This document shows, piece by piece, positions 30,378 to 44,901 of a stretch of 46,577 bases of DNA; positions within the stretch are counted from its first letter, which is position 1; every line of letters starts with the position of its first letter. The position numbers and the translations under genes are program-made. The notes under the pieces are model-generated. The model saw nothing but the letters and a program-made list of their open reading frames with translations, had not been told where the DNA came from and did no database searches. Source of the stretch: a virus. The stretch lies in IMG/VR virus record IMGVR_UViG_3300043773_001254, positions 1 through 46,577 of that record; one strand, given 5' to 3'.

Positions 30378-30411
30378 CGTTGGCCTATCGACTTGGCTGG
30401 CGTGCGTCAGA

Positions 30412-30425
30412 GTGCATGTATGCAC
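30412..30425. promoter_or_regulatory. Palindrome GTGCATGTATGCAC over the sigma start codon
   Basis: A perfect 6-bp inverted repeat (GTGCAT, then GT, then ATGCAC) at 30412-30425. It contains the ATG at 30420 chosen as the start of the sigma gene. A protein bound here would block transcription or translation initiation, so it is a likely operator. Confidence 0.5.
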
Positions 30426-32687: not shown

Positions 32688-34180
32688 GCCCCCTCCTGTG
32701 GCAGCGGCACGACGCGAGCCCAGTGGGGGATGGCGTTGTGCCACGAAGATCCCTTCTCGCCTGTGTACGCCACGACGACACGGGCACGGGGCTTCTTGCC
32801 GTGCCAGTTCGTCTCGGCGTCGGTGATGAGGACGATGGAATCGGGCTTGTCCGTCCGCTCCACCTGCTCGATGGCGGTGGACATGTCCGTTCCGCCGCCC
32901 CCGTGCCAGTCGAACACCCGTGTCGTGGCGACCAGTGCGTGCGACTGCACCTTCGTGTCGGCACAGTACACCTTGACTCGCCCCAGTTTCCGCAACCCTT
33001 GAGCGATGACGGAGAGTGCCTTCGCCTGGATGTCCTTCGTCATCATGGACGCGGACGTATCCACGATGACGACGGCGTGCGGCTGCACGGTGATACGGCC
33101 GTGCAGGAGGGGGGCGTCATCGCCCGGTGGCTGCTTGCGTGACCGGCGGCGGTGGGAGTAGTCCCGCCCGCCAACCGGCGAGGCCACGCTGGTGCAGACT
33201 GCCGACCGCAACTGAGCGAACGGGTCGGGCGTGGGCCGCAACTTCTGCTTGAGTGCCTGCTTGATGGAGCCGGGCACCTTGCCGGGATTGCTGGCCTCGT
33301 ACTTGGCTATGGCTTCTTCCGCTTGGGCTGCGGCCATGTCTTCGCCGTAGGCCTGCCACGACCCGTCGTCCTCGATTTCGTAGGGGCGAGGGCACCCGTC
33401 CGCACACGAGCCGCCTGTGCCGGGCGAGCCGGCCGGTGGCGGTGCCTTGCCCTTCCCAGACGAAGGCGATCCCGCTCCGTTGCCAGACGGACTCTTGCCG
33501 CCCTCCGCCTCAGCATCGTCGTCGTCAGCATCTCCGTCATCGCCCTGACGTGAATCGCCACCGTCGCTGCCTGTGCCGCCGTTGTCGTCATCCCCGTCAC
33601 CGTCGGAACTGTCGCTGCCGGATGCGGACGAATCTCCCTGCTCGCCACCGTCTCCAGAAGACCCATCGGAATCAGACTCCCCATCTCCGTCTCCTTGCTG
33701 CTGGTTGTTGCTGCCGTTCTTCAACTTCTCCATGATGAGGCGGTAGTACTCCTGCATCGACCTGTTCTCAGGGAAGTCGAGCGTGATGCCCCAGTCCGGG
33801 ACTTCGCATCCCAGATAGACCGCCCCCTCCGGCCGCAGGTGCCGCATCATCGAGAGCGTCTGCTCGATGACCAGATCGGCGGCCACGTTGCAGACGAACC
33901 GCTCCAGGTCGGACGGGTTCTCCCCGATGATCTCGGGTGCCCGGCCGTGATGGTCGAAGATCAGATGCAGTACCTCGTGGGCGACGAGGTACGCCGTCTG
34001 ATCCCGGCCGATCTTGGACACGAACTCGGCATCCCAGTACAGGTTGCCGGCTGCGTCCACTGCCGCCGTGCCGATGCCCGGAGTCTCCTGCTCACGCAGG
34101 GAGTAGATGTATGAGGCGAGGTACGGGACGTATTCAAAGGTGTGTACCCGTGCCTGCCCCAGTAGTTGTCTCGGGGTCAT
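32684..34180 (-). CDS. Metallopeptidase-VWA protein (DUF2201-like)
   Basis: 498 aa. N-terminal putative metallopeptidase domain with HEVLH at residues 68-72 in AYLVAHEVLHLIFDH. A long acidic, Ser/Asp/Gly-rich linker (about 165-265) is probably disordered. The C-terminal von Willebrand A domain begins at VVIVDTSASMM, giving MIDAS DxSxS at 374-378, then GGGTDMS and LITDAE. This is the combination found in DUF2201-type proteins encoded with MoxR ATPases in bacteria. The MoxR gene lies upstream in the same operon. Such pairs use ATP to remodel protein assemblies; the phage target is unknown. Confidence 0.85.
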   Translation of the reverse strand: MTPRQLLGQARVHTFEYVPYLASYIYSLREQETPGIGTAAVDAAGNLYWDAEFVSKIGRDQTAYLVAHEVLHLIFDHHGRAPEIIGENPSDLERFVCNVAADLVIEQTLSMMRHLRPEGAVYLGCEVPDWGITLDFPENRSMQEYYRLIMEKLKNGSNNQQQGDGDGESDSDGSSGDGGEQGDSSASGSDSSDGDGDDDNGGTGSDGGDSRQGDDGDADDDDAEAEGGKSPSGNGAGSPSSGKGKAPPPAGSPGTGGSCADGCPRPYEIEDDGSWQAYGEDMAAAQAEEAIAKYEASNPGKVPGSIKQALKQKLRPTPDPFAQLRSAVCTSVASPVGGRDYSHRRRSRKQPPGDDAPLLHGRITVQPHAVVIVDTSASMMTKDIQAKALSVIAQGLRKLGRVKVYCADTKVQSHALVATTRVFDWHGGGGTDMSTAIEQVERTDKPDSIVLITDAETNWHGKKPRARVVVAYTGEKGSSWHNAIPHWARVVPLPQEGA

Positions 34181-34446
34181 GCTGTCCTCCCTTCTGCCCA
34201 GTCGGGCTGGGCCTTTACTCGGAACGTCTCTCGCTTGTCAGTCTTGGGGTGGGCACGATGCCGGAACTCATGCACCCACCCGACGGGCATGCTGGCGGTG
34301 CCCATGTACTGCCATGCCTCGCAGGCACCGTCGTGAAAGCACTGCGTTGGCACAGCGTCGTCGCTGTTCAGCGGGTCGGAGGCAAGTCGCTCCCACATGT
34401 AGTCCCACTCGGGGCTTCCCGCAGTCACGAACCGTATCCCTTCCAT
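34177..34446 (-). CDS. Small hypothetical protein between MoxR and VWA genes
   Basis: 89 aa; ATG 34446 overlaps the upstream stop as TGATG (a GTG at 34449 would add one residue), and its end overlaps the VWA gene start as ATGA. Polar and mixed, with WDYMWERLASDPLNSDD and VGWVHEFRHRAHPKTDKRETF. No membrane segment or known motif. Position suggests a role in the MoxR-VWA set; unproven. Confidence 0.55.
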   Translation of the reverse strand: MEGIRFVTAGSPEWDYMWERLASDPLNSDDAVPTQCFHDGACEAWQYMGTASMPVGWVHEFRHRAHPKTDKRETFRVKAQPDWAEGRTA

Positions 34447-34775
34447 CACTCGTCCCTCCCTTCGGCTGTGGCGATGGCTGCGATGGCCCGGTCGATGACG
34501 GCAGTGGTGTCGTTGTCCGACTCGTCATCTGGATACAGTTGCTCGTACAAGTCGATTAGTTCTGACGTGCAGTCACGCAATACCGCAAGCAACTCCGGTG
34601 CGGCAAGGAGCGTGGGCATCATCTCCTGCAAGGCGGCGAACCCATCGCGAGTGTCGCCGTTCATCGCCTCGTCGGCATCGTTCGCACCCCTCCCGATCCG
34701 GTAGTTCTCCTCGACGTTCTCCTTCTCGACATCCATCAAGAACTTGAGGTACTGATCCCAAGTCATCGCAGCCAT
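34446..34775 (-). CDS. Small acidic helical protein in MoxR operon
   Basis: 109 aa from ATG 34775, AGGAG 8 nt upstream; ATG 34781 is too close to that site. The start (MAAMTWDQYLKFLMDVEKEN) is helical; the rest is acidic helices (APELLAVLRDCTSELIDLYEQL) ending with ESDNDTTAVIDRAIAAIA. Lies 26 nt after the MoxR stop. Unknown; possibly an adaptor of the ATPase. Confidence 0.55.
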   Translation of the reverse strand: MAAMTWDQYLKFLMDVEKENVEENYRIGRGANDADEAMNGDTRDGFAALQEMMPTLLAAPELLAVLRDCTSELIDLYEQLYPDDESDNDTTAVIDRAIAAIATAEGRDE

Positions 34776-34801
34776 GTGCATGTCTCCTGTGTGTGGGTGA
34801 A

Positions 34802-35905
34802 TCACGACTGAACCAACGCCATCAACTTGGCAAGCACGTCCTTCGGGGGCGACCAGCCATCCGGGCGGACGCCGCCCTTGCTGACGGGATTCCAGAACGA
34901 ACGGAACTGCATGAGGAACGACTCGATCTCCTGCTCCCCGACGGTGATGAAAGCCTCCGCCGCACGGGTCCACCGCTCCTTGCTGGTGTTGTCACGCAAC
35001 GCCTTCACCAGCCCGGTGAGGAAGCAGATGTTGGCGTCGGGCCGCTTCTCATACTTGTAGTCCTCAGCACCGGACAGGTACGCCTCCGGGTTGAGGAGGT
35101 CGAGCCGGTGCCAGTACCGGAGGAACTCGCCGCCCACCTCCGCACCGACGCAGCCGACGGCGAGCGGCCGGTAGATGGGGTCTTTCTGTTCGTACCCGCA
35201 TGCACCAGCCGCAGCGAAGCACTTGACCAGGAACGTCCAGGTCCGCAGGTTAGGGAACGCCATCGTCTCGTCGTCCTGCGGCAACTTCTCCCGTGCGTCG
35301 GGAGCCGAGCGGAGGAACGCCTCGACCAGCGAGCCGAACTGCGGGAGGAAGTCGGTCCAGTGGGCCGGCACGATGGGGAACTCGGGTGCCTTCCACTCGC
35401 AGCCAGCACGCAAGCCGGTGAACCAGTGTTCGTAGTCCACCTCCCATGGGAAGTGGACGAACCGGGCACGCATGGCAGGTGCAAGGGGCACCGCATTGGG
35501 GCACAGTTCCGGCGGGTTGCAGGCACCGACGATGATGGTCGATGCCGGCATGACGTACTCGCCAACCCGTCGCTCGGACAGGACGGAGAGCAGGCCACCC
35601 TGCGTGGCGGACGGCACGTTCGTCACCTCGTCCACGAGGACGAGAGCCTTGCCGTCTTTGGTCTTGTCCCACAGCGAGGTCGGCATCATGCGGACGACGC
35701 CGGCCTTGTTGTCGGGGATGGGATAGCCCGAGAAATCTTCGGGCAGGTGGGTCGCACCGAGTAGCGGAACGAACGTCCGCTCCAGTGCATTTGCCAACGC
35801 CTCCCACGTCGAGGACTTGCCGACGCCAGTGCCGCCCGTGACCAGCACGGGGGCGACCTGACAGGCGAGGAACGCAGGGGTGTTGCCGAGTGTTGCGCGA
35901 GCCAT
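34802..35905 (-). CDS. MoxR-type AAA+ ATPase
   Basis: 367 aa from ATG 35905, with CGGAG about 10 nt before; upstream in-frame codons at 35965 would read through the repeat-bearing gap and are rejected. Walker A GGTGVGKSS (24-32), Walker B LVLVDE (88-93), sensor-1 IIVGACNPPE (about 123-132) and arginine finger MRARF (about 144-148). The C-terminal half is a helical lid. MoxR ATPases work with VWA-domain proteins as chaperone-like remodelling machines; the partner gene lies two genes downstream. A hairpin and the repeated 14-mer lie just upstream. Confidence 0.85.
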   Translation of the reverse strand: MARATLGNTPAFLACQVAPVLVTGGTGVGKSSTWEALANALERTFVPLLGATHLPEDFSGYPIPDNKAGVVRMMPTSLWDKTKDGKALVLVDEVTNVPSATQGGLLSVLSERRVGEYVMPASTIIVGACNPPELCPNAVPLAPAMRARFVHFPWEVDYEHWFTGLRAGCEWKAPEFPIVPAHWTDFLPQFGSLVEAFLRSAPDAREKLPQDDETMAFPNLRTWTFLVKCFAAAGACGYEQKDPIYRPLAVGCVGAEVGGEFLRYWHRLDLLNPEAYLSGAEDYKYEKRPDANICFLTGLVKALRDNTSKERWTRAAEAFITVGEQEIESFLMQFRSFWNPVSKGGVRPDGWSPPKDVLAKLMALVQS

Positions 35906-35940: not shown

Positions 35941-35976
35941 GGGGGACGGGGCAGCACGATGCCACCCCGTTCCCCC
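35941..35976 (-). other. Hairpin before MoxR gene
   Basis: GGGGGACGGGG (35941-35951) pairs with CCCCGT-CCCCC (35965-35976) with one bulged T. Placed between 14-mer copy 1 and the MoxR start. Confidence 0.5.
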
Positions 35977-35983
35977 ACGAACC

Positions 35984-36015
35984 GGACTCCGCAGCGGGAA
36001 AACTGCGGGGAAAAC
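35984..36015 (-). repeat. 14-mer repeat copy 1, long form
   Basis: GGACTCCGCAGCGG (35984-35997) extended by GAAAACTGCGGGGAAAAC; ends 1 nt from the stop of the HTH gene at 36017. Confidence 0.85.
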
Positions 36016-36016
36016 G

Positions 36017-36346
36017 TCAGCCGCCGACGCAGATCACGAACGTCGCGTCCGTCGCCTGCGGCATGGGCCGTGCTGCCCGCACGACCTGCTGCTCGACCCG
36101 CCCGGACGCCCGGGCGGCCTTCTTGCGGCCATTCCGCTGGCCGGGCTTGATGCCCAGCGGCCGACGCCGCATGCCCTTCAACTTGGGCAGAGAGATGCCA
36201 CGCCGGGCGAGCATCTGGAGCCGGTCGTTGAGAACGAAGTGGCTGATGCCAGCCAGGTGCAGGAACTCCTTGAAGTGCAGGTCGCACGACAGGGCGTCCT
36301 TGTAATCCGCGATGAACTTGGTGTAGTCGGCACGAAGGGCACGCAT
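36017..36346 (-). CDS. Small basic protein with HTH-like segment
   Basis: 109 aa from ATG 36346, AAGGAG 6 nt upstream. Residues 30-60 (KEFLHLAGISHFVLNDRLQMLARRGISLPKLKG) look like a helix-turn-helix or homeodomain-like DNA-binding segment, followed by a strongly basic stretch (MRRRPLGIKPGQRNGRKK). It is encoded directly before the first repeat-hairpin gap, so it is a candidate DNA- or RNA-binding regulator of this region. This is an inference from the segment and position. Confidence 0.5.
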   Translation of the reverse strand: MRALRADYTKFIADYKDALSCDLHFKEFLHLAGISHFVLNDRLQMLARRGISLPKLKGMRRRPLGIKPGQRNGRKKAARASGRVEQQVVRAARPMPQATDATFVICVGG

Positions 36347-36374
36347 AGCACTCTCCTTAGTGATGGTGGGTGGG

Positions 36375-37253
36375 TCAGACTGCAACAGCGAGCAGGCGAT
36401 TGACGGCGACAGCCTGCTTGACCTGCTCGATGGCGGCGGTCAGGTCGGGCATGGGCTTGCCGAGAACCTGCTCATAGAGACGAACCTTGTCGAGGAACTT
36501 GTCGGCACGGTTGAGGCGGATGTTGATGGAGCGGTCGGCCATGCCGCCGGTCGCGTCCATCACGTCCTGCATGATCTCCGCCAGCCCGGCCTGCACCTCA
36601 GTGCCGAGCCGGTCGAGGACGTGCATCACCGTGTCGGGATCGGATGCGATCTCGACTTGGTGAACCGTGAAGTTGGGGCCGTCGGCGTTCGGTCCACGCA
36701 CAAGCGAGGCGAACTGGCGGAAGTCATCGAGGCTCTGGCCCAGCAGGAACCAGACGCCACCGTCATCCTTGAGCGGCGTGGCCTTCCACGACCGCAGCAT
36801 CTTGACCACCACCTGCCCGACCACGCTGGACGGGAGGTAGTCACGCTCCCGCACGACCGCAGGGTCGAGGGAGGCGAGAACCTGCGAGCCTCGCGGGCCG
36901 GCGGAGTCGTACTCCAGGATGCCCACGTCCCAGTTCGCTCCGATGAGGGCGGAGAACAGGAAGCGGTACTCGTTCTGCGACTGGCCCGGCACCACACGCA
37001 CGACCTCAAACGAGGCCGGGTCGTCCAGTTGCCGCACGACGTTGGGCTGTCGGCGGATGCGTCCGTACAGCCCGTCGGCCACCTCCTTCATGCACTCACG
37101 CAGGACGGTGGTGCGGGCCGGCATGGCGGGCACGAACTTCCCGCCGCCCACCGCATCCGCCGCTGCGAACAGCCGGTCACGGGCGACCGTCTTGGTGTTG
37201 AGGATGACGATGCCGCCGAGCCCCGAGCCGATGGTCAGAATTGTCGGTGTCAT
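36375..37253 (-). CDS. Hypothetical protein at the head of the MoxR-VWA operon
   Basis: 292 aa from ATG 37253 with AAGGAGC just upstream. Contains IGSGLGGIVILNTK near the start, a Val/Leu-rich middle (FEVVRVVPGQSQNEYRFLF, VVVKMLRSWKATPLKDDGG) and a helical end (AGLAEIMQDVMDATGG, LTAAIEQVKQAVA). No nucleotide-binding motif is evident despite the Gly-rich turn. Unknown; its place two genes before MoxR suggests it could be a partner or substrate of the ATPase. Confidence 0.55.
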   Translation of the reverse strand: MTPTILTIGSGLGGIVILNTKTVARDRLFAAADAVGGGKFVPAMPARTTVLRECMKEVADGLYGRIRRQPNVVRQLDDPASFEVVRVVPGQSQNEYRFLFSALIGANWDVGILEYDSAGPRGSQVLASLDPAVVRERDYLPSSVVGQVVVKMLRSWKATPLKDDGGVWFLLGQSLDDFRQFASLVRGPNADGPNFTVHQVEIASDPDTVMHVLDRLGTEVQAGLAEIMQDVMDATGGMADRSINIRLNRADKFLDKVRLYEQVLGKPMPDLTAAIEQVKQAVAVNRLLAVAV

Positions 37254-37264
37254 GGTTGCTCCTT

Positions 37265-37441
37265 TCAGTGAGCGATGAGTTGGGTCTGTGCCTTGAGGAA
37301 CCGGCGTTGCAGGACGGTGAACGCCGCCGCCTGCTCGTGTTCATCGAACTGCTCGCGGTCCTCCGCCGATTCGCAGAGGGCAGCGATGATGAGTTCCACT
37401 TCTCGGGGTGTGAGTGTCACGGTAGTAGTCGGGTATGACAT
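37265..37441 (-). CDS. Small acidic helical protein
   Basis: 58 aa from ATG 37441, with AGGAGG 6 nt upstream inside the CACACAGGAGG leader. The sequence (TLTPREVELIIAALCESAEDREQFDEHEQAAAFTVLQRRF) forms one or two amphipathic helices. A good sigma-70-type promoter lies 18 nt upstream of it. Unknown; first gene behind that promoter. Confidence 0.55.
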   Translation of the reverse strand: MSYPTTTVTLTPREVELIIAALCESAEDREQFDEHEQAAAFTVLQRRFLKAQTQLIAH

Positions 37442-37458
37442 GCCCCGCCTCCTGTGTG

Positions 37459-37486
37459 AGTGTACAGATTTACAGTCATTCGTCAA
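37459..37486 (-). promoter_or_regulatory. Sigma-70-type promoter on the minus strand
   Basis: Minus-strand TTGACG (37486-37481), a 16-nt spacer and TACACT (37464-37459) match five and four of six consensus positions. It lies 18 nt upstream of the 37441 start and partly overlaps the end of the upstream gene, so it can drive the MoxR-VWA operon. Confidence 0.6.
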
Positions 37487-37637
37487 TGGGCTCGACACGA
37501 TTCGCGCCCACGTTCCAGTCCTCGTTCGGGTGCGCCCGCAACCCGGTGAGGACAACCACTTCGCCGTCTCCCGTCTCATCGAACATGGCGTCGGGGCACA
37601 CGGCGACGATTCGATCCATCAGTTCTTTCAGCGTCAT
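37476..37637 (-). CDS. Very small hypothetical protein
   Basis: 53 aa from ATG 37637, AAGGAG 7 nt upstream. MTLKELMDRIVAVCPDAMFDE then a GDGEVVVLTGLRA strand and an acidic end. I recall very similar small proteins in other phages. The minus-strand promoter overlaps its 3' end. It overlaps the LexA-type gene's C-terminus by 62 nt. Confidence 0.5.
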   Translation of the reverse strand: MTLKELMDRIVAVCPDAMFDETGDGEVVVLTGLRAHPNEDWNVGANRVEPIDE

Positions 37638-37866
37638 GCTGTTTCTCCTTGAGGTACGACTTCCAGTCGAACGACCACGCACGGGGGCCAACCACTGTGG
37701 CGTGTCCCTTGCGTGCGATTCTGCGGGCGAGGTACTGCAACCAGCCGAGCCCGGTCCACCCGAAGTGGGCGGCGATCTCCCGGTACGACGGCTGGTATCC
37801 GTTGGCGTCAATCGAGCGGGCGATGAGGGTGAGAATCTCTCGCTCGCGTGGGGTCAGGTCCGACAT
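37576..37866 (-). CDS. LexA-type N-terminal winged-helix DNA-binding protein
   Basis: 96 aa from ATG 37866, GGGAGG about 11 nt upstream. Residues 1-65 (LTPREREILTLIARSIDANGYQPSYREIAAHFGWTGLGWLQYLARRIARKG) match the LexA DNA-binding domain closely: LTPRE.EIL..I...I..NGY.PS.REIA.HFG. The serine-peptidase domain that makes LexA self-cleaving is absent, so this is a stand-alone regulator. It overlaps the next small gene. It could bind the operators noted in this window. Confidence 0.75.
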   Translation of the reverse strand: MSDLTPREREILTLIARSIDANGYQPSYREIAAHFGWTGLGWLQYLARRIARKGHATVVGPRAWSFDWKSYLKEKQHDAERTDGSNRRRVPRRHVR

Positions 37867-38123
37867 GCAGGCGGCACCTCCCTGGCGATCCTCTCGCAGG
37901 AGTCGCCGCTGCACCCGTAGGTAAGCACGCCGTTCCGGGTGATGGCGCACACCCACAGGTCCGGGTCGTCGGTGCCCTCGTAACACACGGCAATCTCCAC
38001 CTTTGGCCCGGCCTCCTCGATGTACAGTCGCTCGCCGTTGGTGAGCGTGAGGGTGTAAGCCGGCCAGCCTCCACCCGAAAGCCGCTTGGCGGACGGCGGG
38101 TACTTGGCATCTGCAAATGGCAT
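37854..38123 (-). CDS. Small hypothetical protein
   Basis: 89 aa from ATG 38123, AAGGAG 7 nt upstream; ATG 38129 is too close to that site. Beta-rich with YTLTLTNGERLYIEE and VEIAVCYEGTDDPDLWVCAITR, two Cys in GCSGDSCERIAREVPPAC. Overlaps the LexA-type gene start. Unknown. Confidence 0.5.
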   Translation of the reverse strand: MPFADAKYPPSAKRLSGGGWPAYTLTLTNGERLYIEEAGPKVEIAVCYEGTDDPDLWVCAITRNGVLTYGCSGDSCERIAREVPPACRT

Positions 38124-38125
38124 GG

Positions 38126-38344
38126 TCATTCTCCTTCGATGTATGCCGTGTCGCCAGCGAGGCGGACGTTGCCTCGCCCTGCCATCACGACACGGGGCTG
38201 TGAGTTCCGCTCCCGGCTACGCACCGGGACGGAACACACGATCTTGCGAACCAAGAGACAGGCACCCTTGTGATGCACCGTCAGCACGGGATGCCCGGCC
38301 TTCGCAGACGCGGGCTTGTTGTAGTGAAACCAGAACGCCGTCAT
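38126..38344 (-). CDS. Small hypothetical protein
   Basis: 72 aa from ATG 38344 (ATGA overlap with the upstream gene), TAGGAG 7 nt before. FWFHYNKPASAKAGHPVLTVHHKGACLLVRKIVC and a final VVMAGRGNVRLAGDTAYIEGE: beta-rich, compact, no known motif. Part of the small-gene run. Confidence 0.5.
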   Translation of the reverse strand: MTAFWFHYNKPASAKAGHPVLTVHHKGACLLVRKIVCSVPVRSRERNSQPRVVMAGRGNVRLAGDTAYIEGE

Positions 38345-38628
38345 GGCTTGACTCCTATGGCCTTGTGGCTGTCGTCGGGCAGTCGCTCGTGAGTGCAGGG
38401 CTTGCCGCCGTCTGGCTGTCCACACGTCGGGCACAGCGAGCAGGTCGCCCGCCACACACGCCCCCACCAATCGCACGGATCGACGGAGATGCTCGCGTAG
38501 TCGGGGAACAGCGACTCATACGCACGCATGACAGACTGGCCGCGTCGTGAGTCCGCGAACACGAACGTCATCGTGTCCTGTGTCTTGTCGCGGTCGAGCG
38601 TGACCGACACCCTCCAGAAGTGCGTCAT
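38341..38628 (-). CDS. Small protein with C-terminal zinc-finger-like motif
   Basis: 95 aa from ATG 38628, AAGGAG 9 nt upstream. Begins MTHFWRVSVTLDRDK, with a beta-rich middle and WWGRVWRATCSLCPTCGQPDGG, two CxxC units plus PCTH, likely binding zinc. The role is unknown. Confidence 0.5.
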   Translation of the reverse strand: MTHFWRVSVTLDRDKTQDTMTFVFADSRRGQSVMRAYESLFPDYASISVDPCDWWGRVWRATCSLCPTCGQPDGGKPCTHERLPDDSHKAIGVKP

Positions 38629-38642
38629 TCCGATCTCTCCTT

Positions 38643-38735
38643 TCAGTCGAGTTCCGCCCACCGTGCCAGTGCCTTCATGGCGACGAAGCACATGGCGAGG
38701 AAGATTTCGATTTCCGTATGGGTCCAACGAGTCAT
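38643..38735 (-). CDS. Tiny predicted protein (30 aa)
   Basis: From ATG 38735 with a strong AAGGAGG 6 nt upstream to the stop at 38643: MTRWTHTEIEIFLAMCFVAM then a short helix. Very short, supported mainly by the ribosome binding site and its place in the run. May be a membrane-associated peptide because of its hydrophobic middle. Confidence 0.4.
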   Translation of the reverse strand: MTRWTHTEIEIFLAMCFVAMKALARWAELD

Positions 38736-38762
38736 GGCTTGCCTCCTTGCTTGCCGTAGAAC

Positions 38763-38795
38763 GGACTCCGCAGCGGGAAAACTGCGGGGAAAACG
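38763..38795 (-). repeat. 14-mer repeat copy 2, long form
   Basis: Same extended sequence as at 35984, exact through its shared 32 bases; ends 5 nt from the DUF4241-like stop at 38801. Confidence 0.85.
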
Positions 38796-38800
38796 CATCG

Positions 38801-39301
38801 TCAGTCGGCGTCGTCCTCTCCGATGAACTCGATTCTGATGCGGAAGCACAGGCCGGCAGCGTCACGCCGGATCGTGGCTGCATATCCACCGTCCCCGAAC
38901 CCGGAGCAACTCACGGCCCCGAACGGCAGGACGCCGGCGCCCGGCTTGTTGAGGGTGAGGCGGCAGCACTTGTCGTAGAAAGACGACTCGTCGGGGTCGT
39001 CGGGGTAGCGAGCGTCGTCGAACACGCCCGCCTGCCCGCTGTCCACGCCCACTTGAAAGTCCGCCGGGATGGCGACGCCCATGCCCCTGAGTGCGTGCGT
39101 CACCGTGAGGCGGCTGATGCGGTTGCCCCATGCGCCGCAGTTCTTTCGCTCGATCTGTGCAATCCACTCGCCCTTCCGGCAGTTGGCGACAGTGCCGCAG
39201 CACCATGTCCCCTTGCCGTAGCACGGGTCGGTGACGCGAAGCACGCCCGACTCGCACTTGAAGGTGCCGATGCTGGTGCTGTCATTGGTTGCGACTGACA
39301 T
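38801..39301 (-). CDS. DUF4241-like hypothetical phage protein
   Basis: 166 aa from ATG 39301, GAGGAG upstream. FKCESGVLRVTDPCYGKGTWCCG at the start and VGVDSGQAGVFDDARYPDD and VSCSGFGDGGYAAT later give the SG.L.VTDPCY ... VDSGQAG..D ... SGFGDGGY layout I associate with a family of phage and bacterial proteins of unknown function. Ten or so Cys, some in CC pairs. Sits between the amidotransferase gene and the long 14-mer copy at 38763. Confidence 0.6.
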   Translation of the reverse strand: MSVATNDSTSIGTFKCESGVLRVTDPCYGKGTWCCGTVANCRKGEWIAQIERKNCGAWGNRISRLTVTHALRGMGVAIPADFQVGVDSGQAGVFDDARYPDDPDESSFYDKCCRLTLNKPGAGVLPFGAVSCSGFGDGGYAATIRRDAAGLCFRIRIEFIGEDDAD

Positions 39302-39320
39302 CGAATAGTCTCCTCGTGTG

Positions 39321-39361
39321 GAAAGAAAGCGGGGCCAGTGACCCAGTGCCACTGGCCCCGC
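39321..39361 (-). terminator. Terminator-like hairpin after the amidotransferase gene
   Basis: A perfect 12-bp stem GCGGGGCCAGTG (39329-39340) / CACTGGCCCCGC (39350-39361) with a 9-nt loop, followed on the minus strand by TTTCTTTC (39328-39321). It lies 24 nt from the amidotransferase stop and precedes the DUF4241-like gene. Confidence 0.65.
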
Positions 39362-39367
39362 AGGAAC

Positions 39368-39381
39368 GGACTCCGCAGCGG
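39368..39381 (-). repeat. 14-mer repeat copy 3
   Basis: Exact 14-mer, 4 nt after the amidotransferase stop in the direction of transcription; the 12-bp hairpin follows. Confidence 0.85.
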
Positions 39382-39385
39382 TGAA

Positions 39386-40237
39386 TTACCGGGCGTCGTG
39401 CAGTGCCTCGATGCCGTAGTGCCCGAGAATCTCACGCACTTCATCCAGGCAAGAGCGGGTGAACCCGTACTCCAGGAGTTCCTCCATCCGCATCTCGGTG
39501 TAGAACTCCTCCGCCCGCTCCGCATCGTCGTCATCCATGCTGTCGTATGCCTGGCGGGCCAGCGTGGCGGAGGCGGAGGTGTCCTCCTCGACGTACTTCC
39601 ACTTGCCGTCGGAAGTCTCGACCCACTCCCGCTCCTTCTTGGGGGCGGGCTGCGTCTTGGCGGGAGTCGAGTACCCGATGGCGGAGCGGTAGTAGTACCC
39701 GGTGTGCGAGTCGTTGCTGTACCAGTGGCCGTCGTCCTCCCAGTCCCCGTCGCCCTCGTTCCAGATGCAGAAGTCGCCGTCCGCACGGAGGAACACGAAC
39801 TTGCTGCCCTTGTGGGCGAGTTGCTGCGTGTACACGACCTCGTTGCGGCGGTAGAAGTCTGCGTCCCGTGCGTACAGCGGCTTGAGAACCAACTCGTTGA
39901 AGTGCCAGGTGTCGCTGCGATCCTTGTCTACCTCGCACTCGATTGAGATGACGCCGTTGTGGATCATGGCGAGCGACTCGGACACGAGGAACGGGTGGCA
40001 GTTGCCCGTGTCCTTCTTGCCGTGCGTTGCCCATCGGAAGTGGATGATGGACTGGCACTCCGAGTACGGCTCAAACGCCTCACGGAACTCCTCGAAATTG
40101 CCGATGCCGCAGCGGGTGACGAGCGTGCCGTTGACGACGACGGCGAACCCCCACGAATCGTCGTTGACTGCGAACCCGTTGCGGTAGGCATCCCAATCGG
40201 GGCGGGTGGTGGCGGGCTTGTAGATGGCGAGGCACAT
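39386..40237 (-). CDS. Class II glutamine amidotransferase
   Basis: 283 aa, ATG 40237. After Met removal Cys2 would be the N-terminal nucleophile. Further motifs: FRWATHG (67-73), NCHPF (79-83) and MIHNGVI (91-97), the GATase II core order. The domain hydrolyses glutamine and channels ammonia to a partner. The C-terminal half (Tyr/Asp/Ser-rich, from residue 150) differs from known biosynthetic enzymes. It lies 39 nt downstream of the amidoligase gene, the pairing described for amidoligase systems, so it likely supplies ammonia for that reaction. Confidence 0.85.
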   Translation of the reverse strand: MCLAIYKPATTRPDWDAYRNGFAVNDDSWGFAVVVNGTLVTRCGIGNFEEFREAFEPYSECQSIIHFRWATHGKKDTGNCHPFLVSESLAMIHNGVISIECEVDKDRSDTWHFNELVLKPLYARDADFYRRNEVVYTQQLAHKGSKFVFLRADGDFCIWNEGDGDWEDDGHWYSNDSHTGYYYRSAIGYSTPAKTQPAPKKEREWVETSDGKWKYVEEDTSASATLARQAYDSMDDDDAERAEEFYTEMRMEELLEYGFTRSCLDEVREILGHYGIEALHDAR

Positions 40238-40276
40238 GCGTGGATCTCCTTGCGGGTGATGGATGAAGGGAAGGAA

Positions 40277-41518
40277 TCAGGCACCGACGATGCGAGACGT
40301 GTGAACCAGTGCGAACAACGGGCTCCGCTCCTTCGGGTTGGCAACGCTCTCGGGCAGGCCCGAGTTGTTGCGGTAGCCGACGCGAAGGGCCGTGTGAGAC
40401 AGGAGGAACTCGTGCAGGTGGCGGTACGTCCGCCGATTGGTGGCAACGAACCGGCGGAAGTTCATGAAGTGCAGCGGGTCGGTGCCGGCATCGACCAAGC
40501 CGAACCCGTGTGCCGCCTGCTCGCAGAACTTCACGGCAGCGATGGCGAACTCGTGGTTCTTGAGGATCGCCCGGCTGTACAGGTTGCTCTTGAACAGGCG
40601 GAACTCCACCGTGTCGTTGGTGATGTTCAGCACTTCGTACCTGTCGCTGTTCTCCTGGTCCGTGATCCGCTTGGTGCGGAACTTGTTGAACCCGGCGGGC
40701 CGGCAGGCGATGGCCTCCAAGAACGCCCGGTTTGGCTCGGCGTTCATGAACACCAGCAACTTGCCCAGAGTGAGCGGGCCAATGGCCGCACGACTCAGGT
40801 GGATGTGATGCCCAACGTCCTCGCCCTTGTCCCACGCGGAGCAACGCCCGTTGCCCAGCGTCTTGAACGCCCCGAAGATGCCGTACACCTGCTCGGTCGT
40901 GAGCGGCACCGTCACCAACTCAAACCCGCCGCTGCCGTACTCATCGAGCGAGCCGTCGCGTTTGGCGATGGCACACTTGCGGGTGCGGGTTAGCGGGTTG
41001 AGGTTGGCGTACAGGTCGTCAACCTGCTTGATCGTGTACTCCACGTCATCGAAGTCCTCGTCGTCCGAGTACATCTCGATCTCGTGCCCGGCGTACATGT
41101 ACGAACCGGGCAGGTCGGGATCGGGGTTCCAGCCGTGACGGCGATGGGCACGGGTGCCGTAGTCGTCCAGTTGGTCATCGAAATTGGAGGCGCGACACTC
41201 GCACGAGTCGTCGTAGCACTCGCCGTTCGCACAGCGGGAGTTGCCGAAGGAGTCCTGGCCGTACTGGTCGTACCCGTCGGAGTCGTAGCCTTCCCGGTCG
41301 TACCCGTCCTCGTTGTATCCCGCGACGCTGTACCCCTCGCTGTCGATGCGCTCGCCGTCTCGGGTGAGGCGAGTTGTGGGATGGAACTCCGTCTCGGTGA
41401 CGGAGTGGATGCCGTCACTGTCGAACCCGTTGGGGTCGAGGACCGTGCCGGTTTCACGGTGCATGCCCACGCTGTCGAACCCGTACTCGTCGTACTCGAT
41501 CTCGATGCCGTCGCTCAT
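40277..41518 (-). CDS. Amidoligase (ATP-dependent COOH-NH2 ligase)
   Basis: 413 aa from ATG 41518, GGAGGAG upstream. Core motifs: GHEIEM (144-149), GGFELVTVP (197-205), GHHIHLS (236-242) and the YEVLNITNDTVEFRLFK strand (294-310), as in phage Amidoligase_2 proteins of the glutamine-synthetase-like fold. These join a carboxyl group to an amine using ATP. The N-terminal 95 residues carry acidic (Y/F)(D/N)xxG pentads. The amidotransferase gene follows in the same operon. A Rho-independent-type hairpin sits immediately upstream, suggesting conditional expression. Substrate unknown. Confidence 0.85.
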   Translation of the reverse strand: MSDGIEIEYDEYGFDSVGMHRETGTVLDPNGFDSDGIHSVTETEFHPTTRLTRDGERIDSEGYSVAGYNEDGYDREGYDSDGYDQYGQDSFGNSRCANGECYDDSCECRASNFDDQLDDYGTRAHRRHGWNPDPDLPGSYMYAGHEIEMYSDDEDFDDVEYTIKQVDDLYANLNPLTRTRKCAIAKRDGSLDEYGSGGFELVTVPLTTEQVYGIFGAFKTLGNGRCSAWDKGEDVGHHIHLSRAAIGPLTLGKLLVFMNAEPNRAFLEAIACRPAGFNKFRTKRITDQENSDRYEVLNITNDTVEFRLFKSNLYSRAILKNHEFAIAAVKFCEQAAHGFGLVDAGTDPLHFMNFRRFVATNRRTYRHLHEFLLSHTALRVGYRNNSGLPESVANPKERSPLFALVHTSRIVGA

Positions 41519-41540
41519 GTCACTCCTCCGTTGAAGTGGG

Positions 41541-41575
41541 GAAAAGAAAAGGGCCGCCCCACAACGGGACGGCCC
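41541..41575 (-). terminator. Terminator-like hairpin before the amidoligase gene
   Basis: Minus-strand stem from 41575 to 41551: GGGCCGUCCC, loop GUUGU, GGGGCGGCCC, ten pairs including one U-G pair, followed by TTTTCTTTTC at 41550-41541. The next start codon is 23 nt further, leaving no room for a separate promoter, so this acts as an attenuator if transcription comes from upstream. Confidence 0.65.
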
Positions 41576-41586
41576 AGCCGAAACAC

Positions 41587-41600
41587 GGACTCCGCAGCGG
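41587..41600 (-). repeat. 14-mer repeat copy 4
   Basis: Exact 14-mer, 34 nt after the stop at 41635; terminator-like hairpin 41541-41575 follows. Confidence 0.85.
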
Positions 41601-41634
41601 CAGGTCAGCCGCAATTCGCCTCGTCGCTCACCAC

Positions 41635-41853
41635 TCAGTCCTCCTCAAGGGACGGGAACACAGGGAACGCTCCCGCCTTGCCCTCACGGGCGTCGTCCAG
41701 CAGGCTGGCGAGATGCCGCAGCGTGGCGGCACAGTCGGCCGCGACCTGCTGCCACGTTGCGTGCGGCGGCCCCACTGTCTCGCCCGACAGGGCGGAGAAG
41801 TGGGACCGCAGCATCCGCAGCCCGTGCCGCATGCGGTCGTAGTTGTCTGCCAC
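41635..41853 (-). CDS. Small helical hypothetical protein
   Basis: 72 aa from GTG 41853, GGAGG 8 nt upstream, 3 nt after the upstream stop. Helical: MRHGLRMLRSHFSALSG, AADCAATLRHLASLLDDARE. No family recognised. Confidence 0.5.
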   Translation of the reverse strand: MADNYDRMRHGLRMLRSHFSALSGETVGPPHATWQQVAADCAATLRHLASLLDDAREGKAGAFPVFPSLEED

Positions 41854-41856
41854 GAA

Positions 41857-42069
41857 TCAGTCCTCCTTTCCGTCTGGCGGATCGCACGCATTGATTTCGA
41901 GCGGCGTTTCGTGCGTTGCGTTGCCGAAACGGAACGGCTCCACGATCACCAGTTCCGGGTCGAAGTTGTCGTAGAACTGATCCTCCGCCTCCTCCTCTGT
42001 CGCGGCGTCTATGTGCATCACCTCTCGCACCCAGTAGGCGCGATCGCGTGTGACCAAGAAGTGCGTCAT
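41857..42069 (-). CDS. Small hypothetical protein with acidic helix
   Basis: 70 aa from ATG 42069, GGAGGG 6 nt upstream. MTHFLVTRDRAYWVREVMHIDAATEEEAEDQFYD then PELVIVEPF; a pattern of short phage proteins with a beta-helix-beta plan. It starts 2 nt after the upstream stop. Unknown. Confidence 0.55.
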   Translation of the reverse strand: MTHFLVTRDRAYWVREVMHIDAATEEEAEDQFYDNFDPELVIVEPFRFGNATHETPLEINACDPPDGKED

Positions 42070-42071
42070 GT

Positions 42072-42242
42072 TCAGCCCTCCTTCTTCACGAGGTCGGCCA
42101 CCTCACGACGCTCACGATGGGTGAGCGTGCGAAGGTCGGCCAGCAGGTGACGCTGCGACTTCGCACCCACCTCGCGTGCCACACGGGCGAGCGAGACGAA
42201 GTGCATGAGGCGGGGGTTGGTGACAGTGACATGCGTGCGCAT
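42072..42242 (-). CDS. Small basic hypothetical protein
   Basis: 56 aa from ATG 42242, GGAGGAG 5 nt upstream. RLMHFVSLARVAREVGAKSQRHLLADLRTLTHRERREVADLVKK is a basic helical stretch that could bind nucleic acid. Unknown. Confidence 0.5.
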   Translation of the reverse strand: MRTHVTVTNPRLMHFVSLARVAREVGAKSQRHLLADLRTLTHRERREVADLVKKEG

Positions 42243-42274
42243 GGGATCTCCTCCGAAACAGGGACAAGGGACGG

Positions 42275-42295
42275 CCGACGGCAACGTGCCGCCGG
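42275..42295 (-). other. Hairpin upstream of the 42242 gene
   Basis: CCGACGGC (42275-42282) / GCCGCCGG (42288-42295), loop AACGT; the one odd position is a G-U pair in the minus-strand RNA. Core sequence ACGGCAACGTGCCGCC recurs near 43764. Confidence 0.5.
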
Positions 42296-42556
42296 TCAGG
42301 AACCGGACTCCGCAGCGGCTAAACTTCGGCGAAAACTGGGGTGGCTGGTGTTCCACTTCTCGACAATCGCCCACGCCACGCTTCGCCACTCGCAGCGTGT
42401 GATTCGCAGCACACTGGCAGGAGAGACGCCTGCCTTGCGTGCCACTTCGTCACGCCACTCGCCTCGCGTGCATCCGCCCACAGGCTCAACGATGCGGGCG
42501 TGATTCCAGGTGAACACGACGTAGCACGGCGACCTTTCGTGCGAGTAGTCGATCAT
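42296..42556 (-). CDS. Small hypothetical protein reading through a repeat copy
   Basis: 86 aa from ATG 42556, GGAG 9 nt upstream. Its last residues (LAAAESGS) are encoded by the 14-mer copy at 42305, the only repeat in this array inside a gene. A segment WRDEVARKAGVSPASVLRITRCEWR resembles a short HTH. Possibly its stop was moved by mutation. Confidence 0.5.
   Translation of the reverse strand: MIDYSHERSPCYVVFTWNHARIVEPVGGCTRGEWRDEVARKAGVSPASVLRITRCEWRSVAWAIVEKWNTSHPSFRRSLAAAESGS
42305..42318 (-). repeat. 14-mer repeat copy 5, near-long form
   Basis: Exact 14-mer continued by a diverged long form (shares AAACT and GAAAACT). It lies inside the last codons of the 42296 gene rather than after its stop. 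Confidence 0.8.
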
Positions 42557-42578
42557 TCGTGGGGCTCCGTGAAATGCG

Positions 42579-42613
42579 ACGGGGCCAGCCGCCACAGTGA
42601 CGACTGGCCCCGT
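42579..42613 (-). other. Hairpin upstream of the 42556 gene
   Basis: Perfect 10-bp stem ACGGGGCCAG (42579-42588) / CTGGCCCCGT (42604-42613); nine pairs are shared with the hairpin at 39329. Confidence 0.55.
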
Positions 42614-42629
42614 TCGCAGGATGAAAACC

Positions 42630-42643
42630 GGACTCCGCAGCGG
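42630..42643 (-). repeat. 14-mer repeat copy 6
   Basis: Exact 14-mer, 4 nt after the stop at 42648; a 10-bp hairpin follows. Confidence 0.85.
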
Positions 42644-42647
42644 CGGA

Positions 42648-42851
42648 TTACCGCACGAACACCGGCAGTGCCGCATCGGCTGGCTGCGGCTCGCGTTCCA
42701 GTCGGGCGATCTCGTCCGCCCACTCGTTCGTGCGGAGGGCGGAGGCGACGGCCTTCACCTGCTCGACGGTCTTGTACGGACCCTGCACGGGCGTCTCGGC
42801 ACGGGTCGAGACGAGGTAGAGCAGTCCGTCGTTGGCACGAAAGCACTTCAT
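42648..42851 (-). CDS. Small hypothetical protein
   Basis: 67 aa from ATG 42851, AAGGAG 6 nt upstream. MKCFRANDGLLYLVSTRAETPVQGPYKTVEQVKAVASALRTNEWADEI: short beta strands then a helix. Followed by the 14-mer at 42630. Unknown. Confidence 0.5.
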   Translation of the reverse strand: MKCFRANDGLLYLVSTRAETPVQGPYKTVEQVKAVASALRTNEWADEIARLEREPQPADAALPVFVR

Positions 42852-42887
42852 GGGAAACTCCTTTGAAACAGGGGCTAGAAACACAAA

Positions 42888-42961
42888 CGCCCACCGCGAA
42901 GTTGCGATGGGCGAGAGCCTGCGAGTGCAGGTCGAGGCGGGGTGGACAATGCCAGCCCCGC
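42888..42961 (-). other. Two hairpins upstream of the 42851 gene
   Basis: CGCCCACCGC (42888-42897) / GCGATGGGCG (42904-42913), with one U-G pair in minus-strand RNA, and GCGGGGTGG (42937-42945) / CCAGCCCCGC (42952-42961) with one bulge. Confidence 0.55.
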
Positions 42962-42969
42962 TACGATCT

Positions 42970-42983
42970 GGACTCCGCAGCGG
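42970..42983 (-). repeat. 14-mer repeat copy 7
   Basis: Exact 14-mer directly abutting the stop codon at 42984; two hairpins follow. Confidence 0.85.
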
Positions 42984-43178
42984 TCAGACGCGGCGTGGCT
43001 CCGGCCGCTTCGCCATGAGTTCCAGGCCGGCGACGGGCTCGCCCGCCAGGAAGTGCCGCACCCAGTTGGCACGCTCGCGTGTCGAGCCATTCGCTCCGCC
43101 GCCGTGCTTCTCGCACTGCGACAAGGCGGCGGGCTTGAGGTCACGCATCGACTGCACGTTCACGAACTTCATCTTCAT
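42984..43178 (-). CDS. Small basic hypothetical protein
   Basis: 64 aa from ATG 43178 (a second ATG at 43172 is possible), GGAGG 8 nt upstream. Basic with CEKHGGGANGSTRERANWVRHFLAGEPVAG. Its stop directly abuts 14-mer copy 7. Unknown. Confidence 0.5.
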   Translation of the reverse strand: MKMKFVNVQSMRDLKPAALSQCEKHGGGANGSTRERANWVRHFLAGEPVAGLELMAKRPEPRRV

Positions 43179-43210
43179 CGCACGGTCCTCCGTTCAAGGC
43201 ATCGCACATT

Positions 43211-43258
43211 CCTGCAACGGCGCAGGCGAACACCCTGCCAGCGTGAGCCGACAGGGTG
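43211..43258 (-). other. Two hairpins upstream of the 43178 gene
   Basis: CCTGC (43211-43215) / GCAGG (43222-43226) and CACCCTG (43231-43237) / CAGGGTG (43252-43258). Confidence 0.5.
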
Positions 43259-43281
43259 CGTCGTGTGAGCCGTCGTCAGTC

Positions 43282-43295
43282 GGACTCCGCAGCGG
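43282..43295 (-). repeat. 14-mer repeat copy 8
   Basis: Exact 14-mer, 3 nt after the stop at 43299. Confidence 0.85.
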
Positions 43296-43298
43296 CGA

Positions 43299-43721
43299 TC
43301 AGCCGCCGAGCCGAGCCTTGACGAACGCACCGGCAGCGTGGGCTTCGGCACTGCGGCAGGCGTTCACGAACGCCACGAACTCCGCATGGCTGCGGAACCC
43401 GATGCCACGACGACGCCCGGCCGGGCGAAGCACCACGCCGCCGTCGTAGGGCAGGCACTCCAGGCCGCCGAATCGCACGGCACCATCCTCCATCGCCTTG
43501 AGGGCGGGCTTCGCGGCGGGCTTGGCCTTCGCCTTGCGGGTCGCGGGCTTGCCGGTCGCTTTCGCGGCCTTCTGCTCCTCCCGCCACTTGCGGAGGGCTT
43601 CGGGATTGCCCTTCCGCTTCTTCACGGGGGCGGGCACGGCCATCGTCTGCAACTCCGCGACAGCCGCAGCGTGGGCCTTCGCATCGGTCGTGGACAGGAA
43701 CTTCAAGAACTGGGCGATCAT
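43299..43721 (-). CDS. Hypothetical protein with Lys/Ala-rich linker
   Basis: 140 aa from ATG 43721, GGAGG 5 nt upstream. Helical start (MIAQFLKFLSTTDAKAHAAAVAELQ), a Lys/Ala/Pro-rich middle (KRKGNPEALRKWREEQKAAK, KAKAKPAAKPALKAM), and a C-terminal compact part (FGGLECLPYDGGVVLRPAGR). The basic linker could bind nucleic acid. Unknown. Confidence 0.55.
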   Translation of the reverse strand: MIAQFLKFLSTTDAKAHAAAVAELQTMAVPAPVKKRKGNPEALRKWREEQKAAKATGKPATRKAKAKPAAKPALKAMEDGAVRFGGLECLPYDGGVVLRPAGRRRGIGFRSHAEFVAFVNACRSAEAHAAGAFVKARLGG

Positions 43722-43763
43722 GGGAACCTCCGATTGGAAAGAAACACACCGAACCAGTGACGA

Positions 43764-43780
43764 ACGGCAACGTGCCGCCG
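43764..43780 (-). other. Hairpin upstream of the 43721 gene
   Basis: CGGC (43765-43768) / GCCG (43774-43777), loop AACGT. Sequence ACGGCAACGTGCCGCCG is identical to that at 42278-42294. Confidence 0.45.
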
Positions 43781-43789
43781 CCACAATTC

Positions 43790-43803
43790 AGACTCCGCAG
43801 CGG
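43790..43803 (-). repeat. 14-mer repeat copy 9, one mismatch
   Basis: AGACTCCGCAGCGG, differing only at the first base; 4 nt after the stop at 43808. Confidence 0.8.
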
Positions 43804-43807
43804 CGAT

Positions 43808-43987
43808 TTACGCCACCATCAGCACCGGGAACCGGGACTCGATCACGACCTCACCGGCAGGGTCGTAAAGCACGAACAGCCGCACGCCGTCCGCGTTGTC
43901 GTTGATATGCCAGCGGGCCTTCCGCTCGCTGGAAAAGACGTAGGACCGACGCTCGCCATTCGCAGCGATGCACACGACGCAGAACAT
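43808..43987 (-). CDS. Small hypothetical protein (59 aa)
   Basis: Below the usual length cut-off for open-frame listing, but clear: ATG 43987, CGGAG 6 nt upstream, stop at 43808 four nt before the repeat. MFCVVCIAANGERRSYVFSS, then RKARWHINDNADGVRLFVLYD and EVVIESRFPVLMV, a beta-rich small domain. Unknown. Confidence 0.6.
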   Translation of the reverse strand: MFCVVCIAANGERRSYVFSSERKARWHINDNADGVRLFVLYDPAGEVVIESRFPVLMVA

Positions 43988-44019
43988 GGGACGCTCCGGG
44001 TGAGAGGGACGGGACGGCA

Positions 44020-44034
44020 GGCCGAACGTCGGCC
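44020..44034 (-). other. Hairpin upstream of the 43987 gene
   Basis: GGCCGA (44020-44025) / TCGGCC (44029-44034), loop ACG. Confidence 0.45.
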
Positions 44035-44045
44035 AGCCGATAGAC

Positions 44046-44059
44046 GGACTCCGCAGCGG
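44046..44059 (-). repeat. 14-mer repeat copy 10
   Basis: Exact 14-mer, 5 nt after the stop at 44065. Confidence 0.85.
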
Positions 44060-44064
44060 CGAAA

Positions 44065-44193
44065 TCAGCGGATCGGCACACTGGCAATCAGGGCCGACTC
44101 AAGCGCACGCCAAGCATCGCCCTTGTGGATGGAGAGGAACATGGCGTAGCGGGCGTCGAAGTGGCGGATGCAATGGCGAACGAGTCGGTGCAT
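44065..44193 (-). CDS. Small hypothetical protein (42 aa), first gene of minus array
   Basis: ATG 44193 with TGGAG 8 nt upstream, stop at 44065. MHRLVRHCIRHFDARYAMFL then SIHKGDAWRALESALIASV: a short helical peptide. Supported by ribosome binding site and its fit to the stop-repeat spacing of the array. Confidence 0.5.
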   Translation of the reverse strand: MHRLVRHCIRHFDARYAMFLSIHKGDAWRALESALIASVPIR

Positions 44194-44204
44194 GGCAGAG
44201 TCTC

Positions 44205-44247
44205 CAGTCGGTCACTGGACGGTCGCTCGCCGTCGTCGTGCCGACTG
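44205..44247 (-). other. Hairpin upstream of the 44193 gene
   Basis: CAGTCGG (44205-44211) / CCGACTG (44241-44247) enclosing GACGG (44218-44222) / CCGTC (44230-44234). Lies between the 44254 repeat and the first gene of the minus array. Confidence 0.5.
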
Positions 44248-44253
44248 AAAGAC

Positions 44254-44267
44254 GGACTCCGCATCGG
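44254..44267 (-). repeat. 14-mer repeat copy 11, variant, first of the array
   Basis: GGACTCCGCATCGG, one mismatch. No gene stop precedes it in the array, so it marks the promoter-proximal end of the minus operon. Confidence 0.7.
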
Positions 44268-44532
44268 ACGGACCAGGCAGAAAAGAGGTTTCGCCGTCCG
44301 GGTTCACGGCGGCCCTCGACAGCGTGAAGCGGAACCCGTTGGAAAGGCAGGGCTTGCGGCGTCGTATAGATGGAAGGCCCGAAGCCCCCCCAGCCGCATC
44401 ATGTGTTAGTTACGTTCCCCTCCTGGATTTTTTCCCAAAATAGATCGACCCCTGCCCGTTGGGGGGTTGATATACGCCCGTCCAGCGGTATGCTGTCCAC
44501 CTGTCCAGCATCCCAATGAGAGAGAGGAACCG
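44268..44532. promoter_or_regulatory. Divergent intergenic region between minus array and SSB operon
   Basis: 265 nt with no good ORF. It is AT-rich around 44402-44460 (GTTAGTTACG, GATTTTTTCCC, AAAATAGATC), unlike the rest. The plus promoter is listed separately. TGTCCACCTGTCCA (44494-44507) is a direct repeat and may be an operator. No convincing minus-strand promoter was found, though one must lie here or upstream. Confidence 0.5.
44467..44494 (+). promoter_or_regulatory. Sigma-70-type promoter of the SSB operon
   Basis: TTGATA (44467-44472), 16-nt spacer and TATGCT (44489-44494); start about 44501 gives a leader near 30 nt. A TGTCCA direct repeat just downstream overlaps the predicted start. 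Confidence 0.65.
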
Positions 44533-44901
44533 ATGATCGACGCGACCGTGACTGGCAACGTGGGCAAGGTGAACGAACTCCGGATCACCAAGAGCGGGAA
44601 GGCGATGCTGACCTTCTCGGTGGCCTCGACGGAGAAGAAGGACGGCCCGACGACGTGGGTGGAGGTGGTCTGCTTTGACGAGCAGGCGGAGGCATGCTCC
44701 CAGACGCTCTCGAAGGGCCGCGGGGTGGTCGTTTCCGGCCGGATGGGTCTGGAGACGTATGAGAAGAAGGACGGCACACAGGGCTTCTCGTTGCGTCTGA
44801 TGGCGAACGAGGTGGGCGTCAGCCTCCGGTGGCTCCCGAAGGAGGCGGTGGGCGTCTCCGGGCAGGATGAGGAGGCGGTTGTCGGGGAGATCCCGTTCTG
44901 A
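44533..44901 (+). CDS. ssb: Single-stranded DNA-binding protein
   Basis: 122 aa from ATG 44533, GAGAGAGGAA upstream. OB-fold pattern ATVTGNVGKVNELRITKSGKAMLTFSVASTE, TTWVEVVCFDEQAE, GRGVVVSGRMGLETYEKKDG and LRLMANEV. The short tail ends in GEIPF, the acidic tip that binds partner proteins. It protects single strands during phage replication and would work with the nuclease, ERF and helicase genes elsewhere. Heads a plus operon with TGATG-linked genes. Confidence 0.9.
   Translation: MIDATVTGNVGKVNELRITKSGKAMLTFSVASTEKKDGPTTWVEVVCFDEQAEACSQTLSKGRGVVVSGRMGLETYEKKDGTQGFSLRLMANEVGVSLRWLPKEAVGVSGQDEEAVVGEIPF

Follow-up and report, generated by a model that had tools for sequence, protein, structure and literature searches.

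Repeats abutting stop codons in a phage gene array as candidate single-block promoters with hairpin leaders

Eleven copies of a 14-nucleotide (nt) repeat punctuate a minus-strand gene array in the stretch of DNA analysed here, a 46,577-base IMG/VR virus record (hereafter the window). We propose, with a probability of roughly 0.55, that each repeat belongs to a single-block, phage-specific promoter with a hairpin leader. The proposal is built on the anatomy of the element in related viruses, on its place at the heads of gene units, on the exchange of genes around it, and on a phage-encoded sigma factor whose divergence is accompanied by changes in the repeat.

Make-up and placement of the element

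The 14-mer occurs on the minus strand between 35984 and 44267, with nine exact copies and two that carry one mismatch, at 43790 (AGACTCCGCAGCGG) and 44254 (GGACTCCGCATCGG). A preliminary description of the window had reported eleven copies in a single orientation relative to the minus-strand genes, and all of them were recovered. Dinucleotide shuffles predict 0.09 copies, with a maximum of 1, which rules out a chance origin. A host repeat is likewise ruled out, as two longer forms of the motif had no match in 85,000 bacterial and archaeal species genomes; isolated phages gave distant matches only. Pattern and protein scans of viral contigs identified 22 or more related virus records with arrays of this kind, which almost always occupy one strand and one place per record, and a reversed control pattern gave no arrays in the same scans. 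From 16 non-redundant array regions 144 copies were taken. The records are mutually related and their copies are not independent; wherever possible, the analysis relied on the 16 non-redundant records and on 15 hairpin families. Stops and starts were predicted by a home-made gene finder.

Alignment of the copies revealed that the 14-mer forms only the 5' block of a longer element, which runs 5' to 3' through the block, a T-rich gap of 6 nt, a pyrimidine-purine step, a hairpin, a ribosome-binding site and a start codon. The block, T-N-N-CCGCTGCGGAGTC[T/C]G, is about 15 letters long with the consensus CCGCTGCGGAGTCTG; the CCGCTGCGGAGTC[T/C]G portion is nearly invariant, T is present at -3 in 81% of aligned copies, and no conservation is seen in them upstream of the block. 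The gap is AT-rich by contrast with the window, in which GC is 65% genome-wide. Of 97 unique leaders, 91 have a pyrimidine-purine step at +20/+21, as do 14 of the 15 hairpin families; its frequency is 3-5% at adjacent positions and 2-33% at most positions from +14 to +29 (highest 44%, at +23).

The hairpin, absent from the preliminary description, lies 3' of the motif in 10 of the 11 window copies, and such hairpins often have a 3-nt loop closed by A-T. In the leader of the AAA ATPase gene (element 11, the copy at 35984), both sides have changed in 7 of 16 pairs, a level reached by 4 of 500 shuffles, and the covariation score was matched by none of the 500. In the first leader (element 1, at 44254), both sides have changed in 7 of 18 predicted pairs.

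With respect to gene boundaries, a predicted stop is found 0-8 nt before 90 of the 144 copies, compared with 2.0% of random positions in the same arrays, so the association with stops first described in the window held strongly when distances were tabulated in relatives. The distance is 0 nt in 9 copies, 1 or 2 nt in 3, and 3-5 nt in 74. The near-absence of distances of 1-2 nt may arise because the T is required; at 0 nt it comes from the stop codon. Copies are present in nearly all sizeable intergenic gaps of the array and in none of its short junctions. The first copy lies in a divergent region opposite ssb, with no same-strand gene upstream and at a nearly constant distance from the first array gene across relatives, and the genes after the ATPase, at the end of the array, are followed by no copy. 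The element therefore leads the unit downstream, and its contact with the stop reflects the compactness of the operon. Stop anchoring, the term under which the repeat was first described, is thus accurate as geometry and misleading as function: it is mostly compaction, the first copy has no upstream gene, and placement before the next start, mostly 57-80 nt away in the 16 array regions, is at least as tight.

The genes around the elements change while the leaders do not. Leader cores are 86-89% identical between genomes despite unrelated genes downstream, upstream or both; in 48 pairs in which both flanking genes are unrelated, core identity is 0.86 against a baseline of 0.57. The first 60 nt of those flanking genes are 58% identical, which is the baseline for unrelated pairs, and identity in the 14 nt before the start codon is also at baseline. 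Similarity therefore stops at the stop codon on one side and between the hairpin and the ribosome-binding site on the other. Two window leaders illustrate the pattern: that of element 4 shares 72 nt at 97% identity with a leader in L153, and that of element 6 has a 98% identical counterpart in L161, each preceding an unrelated gene there. Conserved cores between unrelated genes indicate that gene exchange occurs at the elements, in support of the earlier suggestion of a cassette-exchange boundary, and we regard the elements on these comparisons as joints where genes are replaced. At the level of the aligned sequences, the make-up of the element, its spacing, the covariation of its hairpins, its place at unit heads and the gene exchange nearby are all established.

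A candidate promoter and its alternatives

As far as sequence can tell, the head of each unit has the geometry of a promoter, with a contiguous block, then an AT-rich gap, then a pyrimidine-purine step at a fixed position, and from this geometry we infer promoter activity, a start site, recognition by a sigma factor and a role for the hairpin. Each repeat would be the recognition block of a compact phage-specific promoter heading a unit of one or few genes, with T-N-N-CCGCTGCGGAGTC[T/C]G at about -24 to -7 and RNA starting past the T-rich gap at the conserved purine, 21 nt downstream of the first C of the block. With a strong hairpin at or close to its 5' end, the RNA would carry a protected leader, perhaps also a readthrough barrier, and the ribosome-binding site and start codon would then follow, the latter 57-80 nt after the motif. 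The upstream coding sequence would extend to the 5' edge of the block, where its stop codon abuts and can supply the conserved T. Recombination would swap genes at the elements, the leaders keeping their place.

The reader may be the host polymerase with the phage's own sigma factor of the extracytoplasmic function (ECF) type. In the window this candidate is encoded on the plus strand at 30393-30944, contains sigma-70 regions 2 and 4, and matches TIGR02937 at 6e-20, above the cut-off. The curated cut-off is exceeded in 10 of 11 records, the eleventh being a fragment that ends before the sigma locus, and all large relatives encode an ECF-type factor, about 175-185 residues long, that has both regions. 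Used as a query, the window protein found 42 loci. Its close relatives accompany the same motif as in the window, and a record with 74% sigma identity has CCGATCCGGAGTC in all detected copies. Records with 46-50% sigma identity have the same array layout and a different motif, TTTCAGGGG[C/T]CGGCGA in one clade and AGGGTCGGCTCT in another, so that the sister-clade motif is uniform within a clade and shifts as the sigma factor diverges. Most sister-clade elements lie at most about 15 nt after stops and about 60-80 nt before starts, and a sister group whose block is altered has the +20/+21 step in 9 of its 10 copies. The sister clades also display an inverted repeat around TTTT, CCCCTGTTTTCAGGGG; in sister clade B (L253, L255, L259) it takes the form CCCCTG-TTTT-CAGGGG, overlapping or following the stop, and a similar left arm, CCGCAG, is seen in 15 of 125 clade A copies, where 1.2 are expected.

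Several observations weigh against a promoter read by this sigma factor. No -35 element is recognisable, although the sigma factor contains region 4, and the block is very rich in GC. The sigma gene lies beyond tail-type genes and is convergent with the end of the array operon, a position that fits a late product rather than a driver of that operon. In some leaders the stem reaches back to +14, upstream of the proposed start, and in at least two leader families a T-tract follows the hairpin, an arrangement expected to promote termination shortly after initiation. The step is weaker in the more distant sister clade B (12 of 18), and a change of motif alongside the sigma factor is also expected from general divergence.

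The principal alternative, possible in our judgment yet clearly less probable than a promoter, is an RNA-level signal: one long transcript would issue from the divergent region, and motif plus hairpin would act as a nut-like antitermination, processing or stability site. Hairpins kept by compensatory changes, a linear motif followed by a hairpin in the manner of boxA and boxB, and the pairing that in some leaders begins inside the would-be promoter all speak for it, as do changes at motif stem positions 0 and 6 that preserve G-U pairs in CCG-NNN-CGG. Strong hairpins, some with T-tracts, would moreover otherwise block a polycistronic transcript. Such a signal leaves the fixed pyrimidine-purine step unexplained, however, and hairpin sequences within a genome are too varied for a boxB-like reader to recognise them, while processive antitermination needs fewer than one copy per unit. 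No Rfam family was matched; a single sub-threshold microRNA hit was all that search returned, and a known RNA family was rejected.

We consider it unlikely that the repeats form an operator array, in which a phage repressor would bind the block and prevent or halt transcription as at stoperators. The sites are asymmetric, 13-15 bp long and in one orientation to transcription, and an alternative candidate reader exists in a LexA-type winged-helix protein encoded within the array (minus strand, 37576-37866) and kept in 11 of 11 relatives. The sites are limited, though, to one operon rather than spread genome-wide, a repressor would explain neither the hairpin nor the start-like step nor the constant distance to the start, and neither pattern detected an array in the 85,000 species genomes, so there is no sign of a resident prophage.

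Two further explanations are improbable. Were the element a 3' terminator of the upstream gene, its stop anchoring would be functional, and hairpins do lie 20-40 nt after stops with a T-tract in some; most lack the T-tract, and the first copy in the divergent region and the absence of copies after the last genes rule out termination as the main function. Slighter still is the prospect of an attC-like recombination site ending each gene cassette. The element follows a stop, folds and is flanked by exchanged genes, yet its right-hand end is not conserved (identity over the final 14 nt upstream of the start equals the baseline), no gene precedes the first element, leaders keep their place and order as genes change, and homologous recombination at short shared sequence is enough. 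A T7-type promoter was rejected, since the PF00940 polymerase is absent from 19 records, many of them fragments, in a search whose T7 control was found at 1e-110; the large plus-strand proteins had no PDB, Pfam or PHROG support as polymerases.

Beyond the promoter proposal, we put forward more tentatively that these are lineage-wide portable gene joints, in which a promoter block that co-evolves with the phage sigma factor between clades is fused to the preceding stop and to a covarying hairpin leader; each joint would express any gene placed behind it and would supply homology for swaps. The proposed elements provide a directly testable rule for how phages keep expressing fast-changing small genes, with a compact leader per unit and exchange at the leaders. 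If the promoter proposal is true, single-block ECF-sigma promoters would no longer be confined to the phiEco32 group but would occur in a GC-rich lineage of uncultured phages as well, and sigma factor and promoter would be a case of joint divergence across clades. The element also offers a marker for small accessory genes in related metagenomic phages.

The window copies and neighbouring features

All eleven elements are on the minus strand. Element 1 (motif 44254-44267, CCGATGCGGAGTCC) opens the array, as had been described: beyond it lies plus-strand ssb (44533-44901, PF00436), leaving no same-strand gene before the copy. Its covarying hairpin spans about 44207-44245, the predicted RNA start is at about 44246, and the next start codon begins at 44193. 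The divergent control region between array and ssb (44268-44532) contains conserved blocks and a sigma70-like TTGATA-N16-TATGCT at 44467-44494 that points toward ssb. In about 14 relatives GGAACGTAACT, a G-run and the inverted repeat TTCACG...CGTGAA are conserved there, and the region could hold operon control sites or an origin.

The six copies originally placed 0-5 nt after stops fall within that range on measurement. They are element 2 (44046-44059, 5 nt; hairpin about 44015-44039), element 3 (43790-43803, CCGCTGCGGAGTCT, 4 nt; hairpin about 43757-43784), element 4 (43282-43295, 3 nt; hairpin about 43230-43259), element 5 (42970-42983, 0 nt after TGA; hairpins about 42937-42961 and 42888-42913), element 6 (42630-42643, 4 nt; hairpin about 42579-42613) and element 9 (39368-39381, 4 nt; hairpin 39329-39361, then a T-tract). 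Element 7 (42305-42318; hairpin about 42275-42295) does lie inside the 3' end of the chosen open reading frame (ORF). At 42296-42330 this ORF reads through the motif and a TAG in another frame adjoins it, which looks like a frameshift that displaced the stop.

Element 8 (41587-41600), the leader of an amidoligase-like gene, lies 34 nt after a stop, the distance given previously, and has a hairpin at 41551-41575 followed by a T-tract. Adjacent glutamine amidotransferase-like and amidoligase-like genes occupy 39386-41518, a pair of the peptide-tagging or cell-wall type that is also present in a few other phages. The two copies noted as longer, elements 10 (38763-38776) and 11 (35984-35997), do carry an extra arm, CCGCAGTTTTC, with 24 and 19 nt, respectively, from stop to motif. 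Element 10 has a short 27-nt leader and no strong hairpin downstream; in element 11, the AAA ATPase leader, the hairpin spans about 35941-35975. A MoxR-type AAA ATPase and DUF2201 metallopeptidase/VWA pair (32684-35905) adjoins the end of the array in relatives too.

Elsewhere, 13885-17400 encodes a 1171-residue protein that is 87% identical in one relative and had no family or structure match. The 81,601-base record behind L173-L176 has its helicase, nuclease and large structural genes in two sets, the second of which has diverged to 25-42% identity with the first.

Comparison with known systems

Integron attC sites, like the window element, follow gene stops, fold and bound exchangeable genes; the window element differs in lacking complementary conserved ends, its right end being at baseline identity. 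The parallels drawn in the preliminary description, to mycobacteriophage stoperators and start-associated sequences (SAS), hold in part, and the defining features differ. Stoperators are likewise short asymmetric repeats in fixed orientation to transcription and often intergenic, whereas nearly all copies of the window type belong to a single array in their record and come with a hairpin and a set distance to the start. The SAS and extended SAS (ESAS) of cluster K mycobacteriophages accompany the start codon and are able to base-pair with 16S rRNA (PMC3203893). They too are repeats of set orientation that precede many small genes; some contain inverted repeats, and their function is unproven. 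The window block, in contrast, is 57-80 nt upstream of starts and beside the previous stop, with its own ribosome-binding site downstream.

The promoter in the T4-type promoter early stem-loops (PeSLs) is a host-type early (sigma70) promoter, whereas the window motif is specific to a phage family and is a GC-rich single block that precedes the hairpin. No host-type sigma70 promoter was found at the elements; the region has only two sigma70-like sites, neither at an element. PeSLs (Arbiol 2010, Comeau 2014) mediate gene shuffling, according to the passage of PMC4503421 that cites them. To the extent of that passage, the resemblance lies in repeated stem-loop units between the small genes of a shuffling region, the window motif being a putative promoter.

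The nearest scheme for transcription is that of phiEco32 and SU10, in which a phage ECF sigma factor serves promoters with a single common motif placed 6-8 nt before the start sites (PMC4281155, PMC4331800). A phage-encoded ECF-type sigma factor is common to phiEco32 (gp36), SU10 (gp32) and the window (30393-30944), and the pyrimidine-purine step, our candidate start, is 6 nt past the block. The phiEco32-type motif is the AT-rich tAATGTATA, in six promoters for middle and late genes; the window element is the GC-rich CCGCTGCGGAGTCTG, which does not fit that consensus. The window further departs from that scheme in having about 11 copies in one operon, each a probable promoter, that abut stops and carry hairpin leaders.

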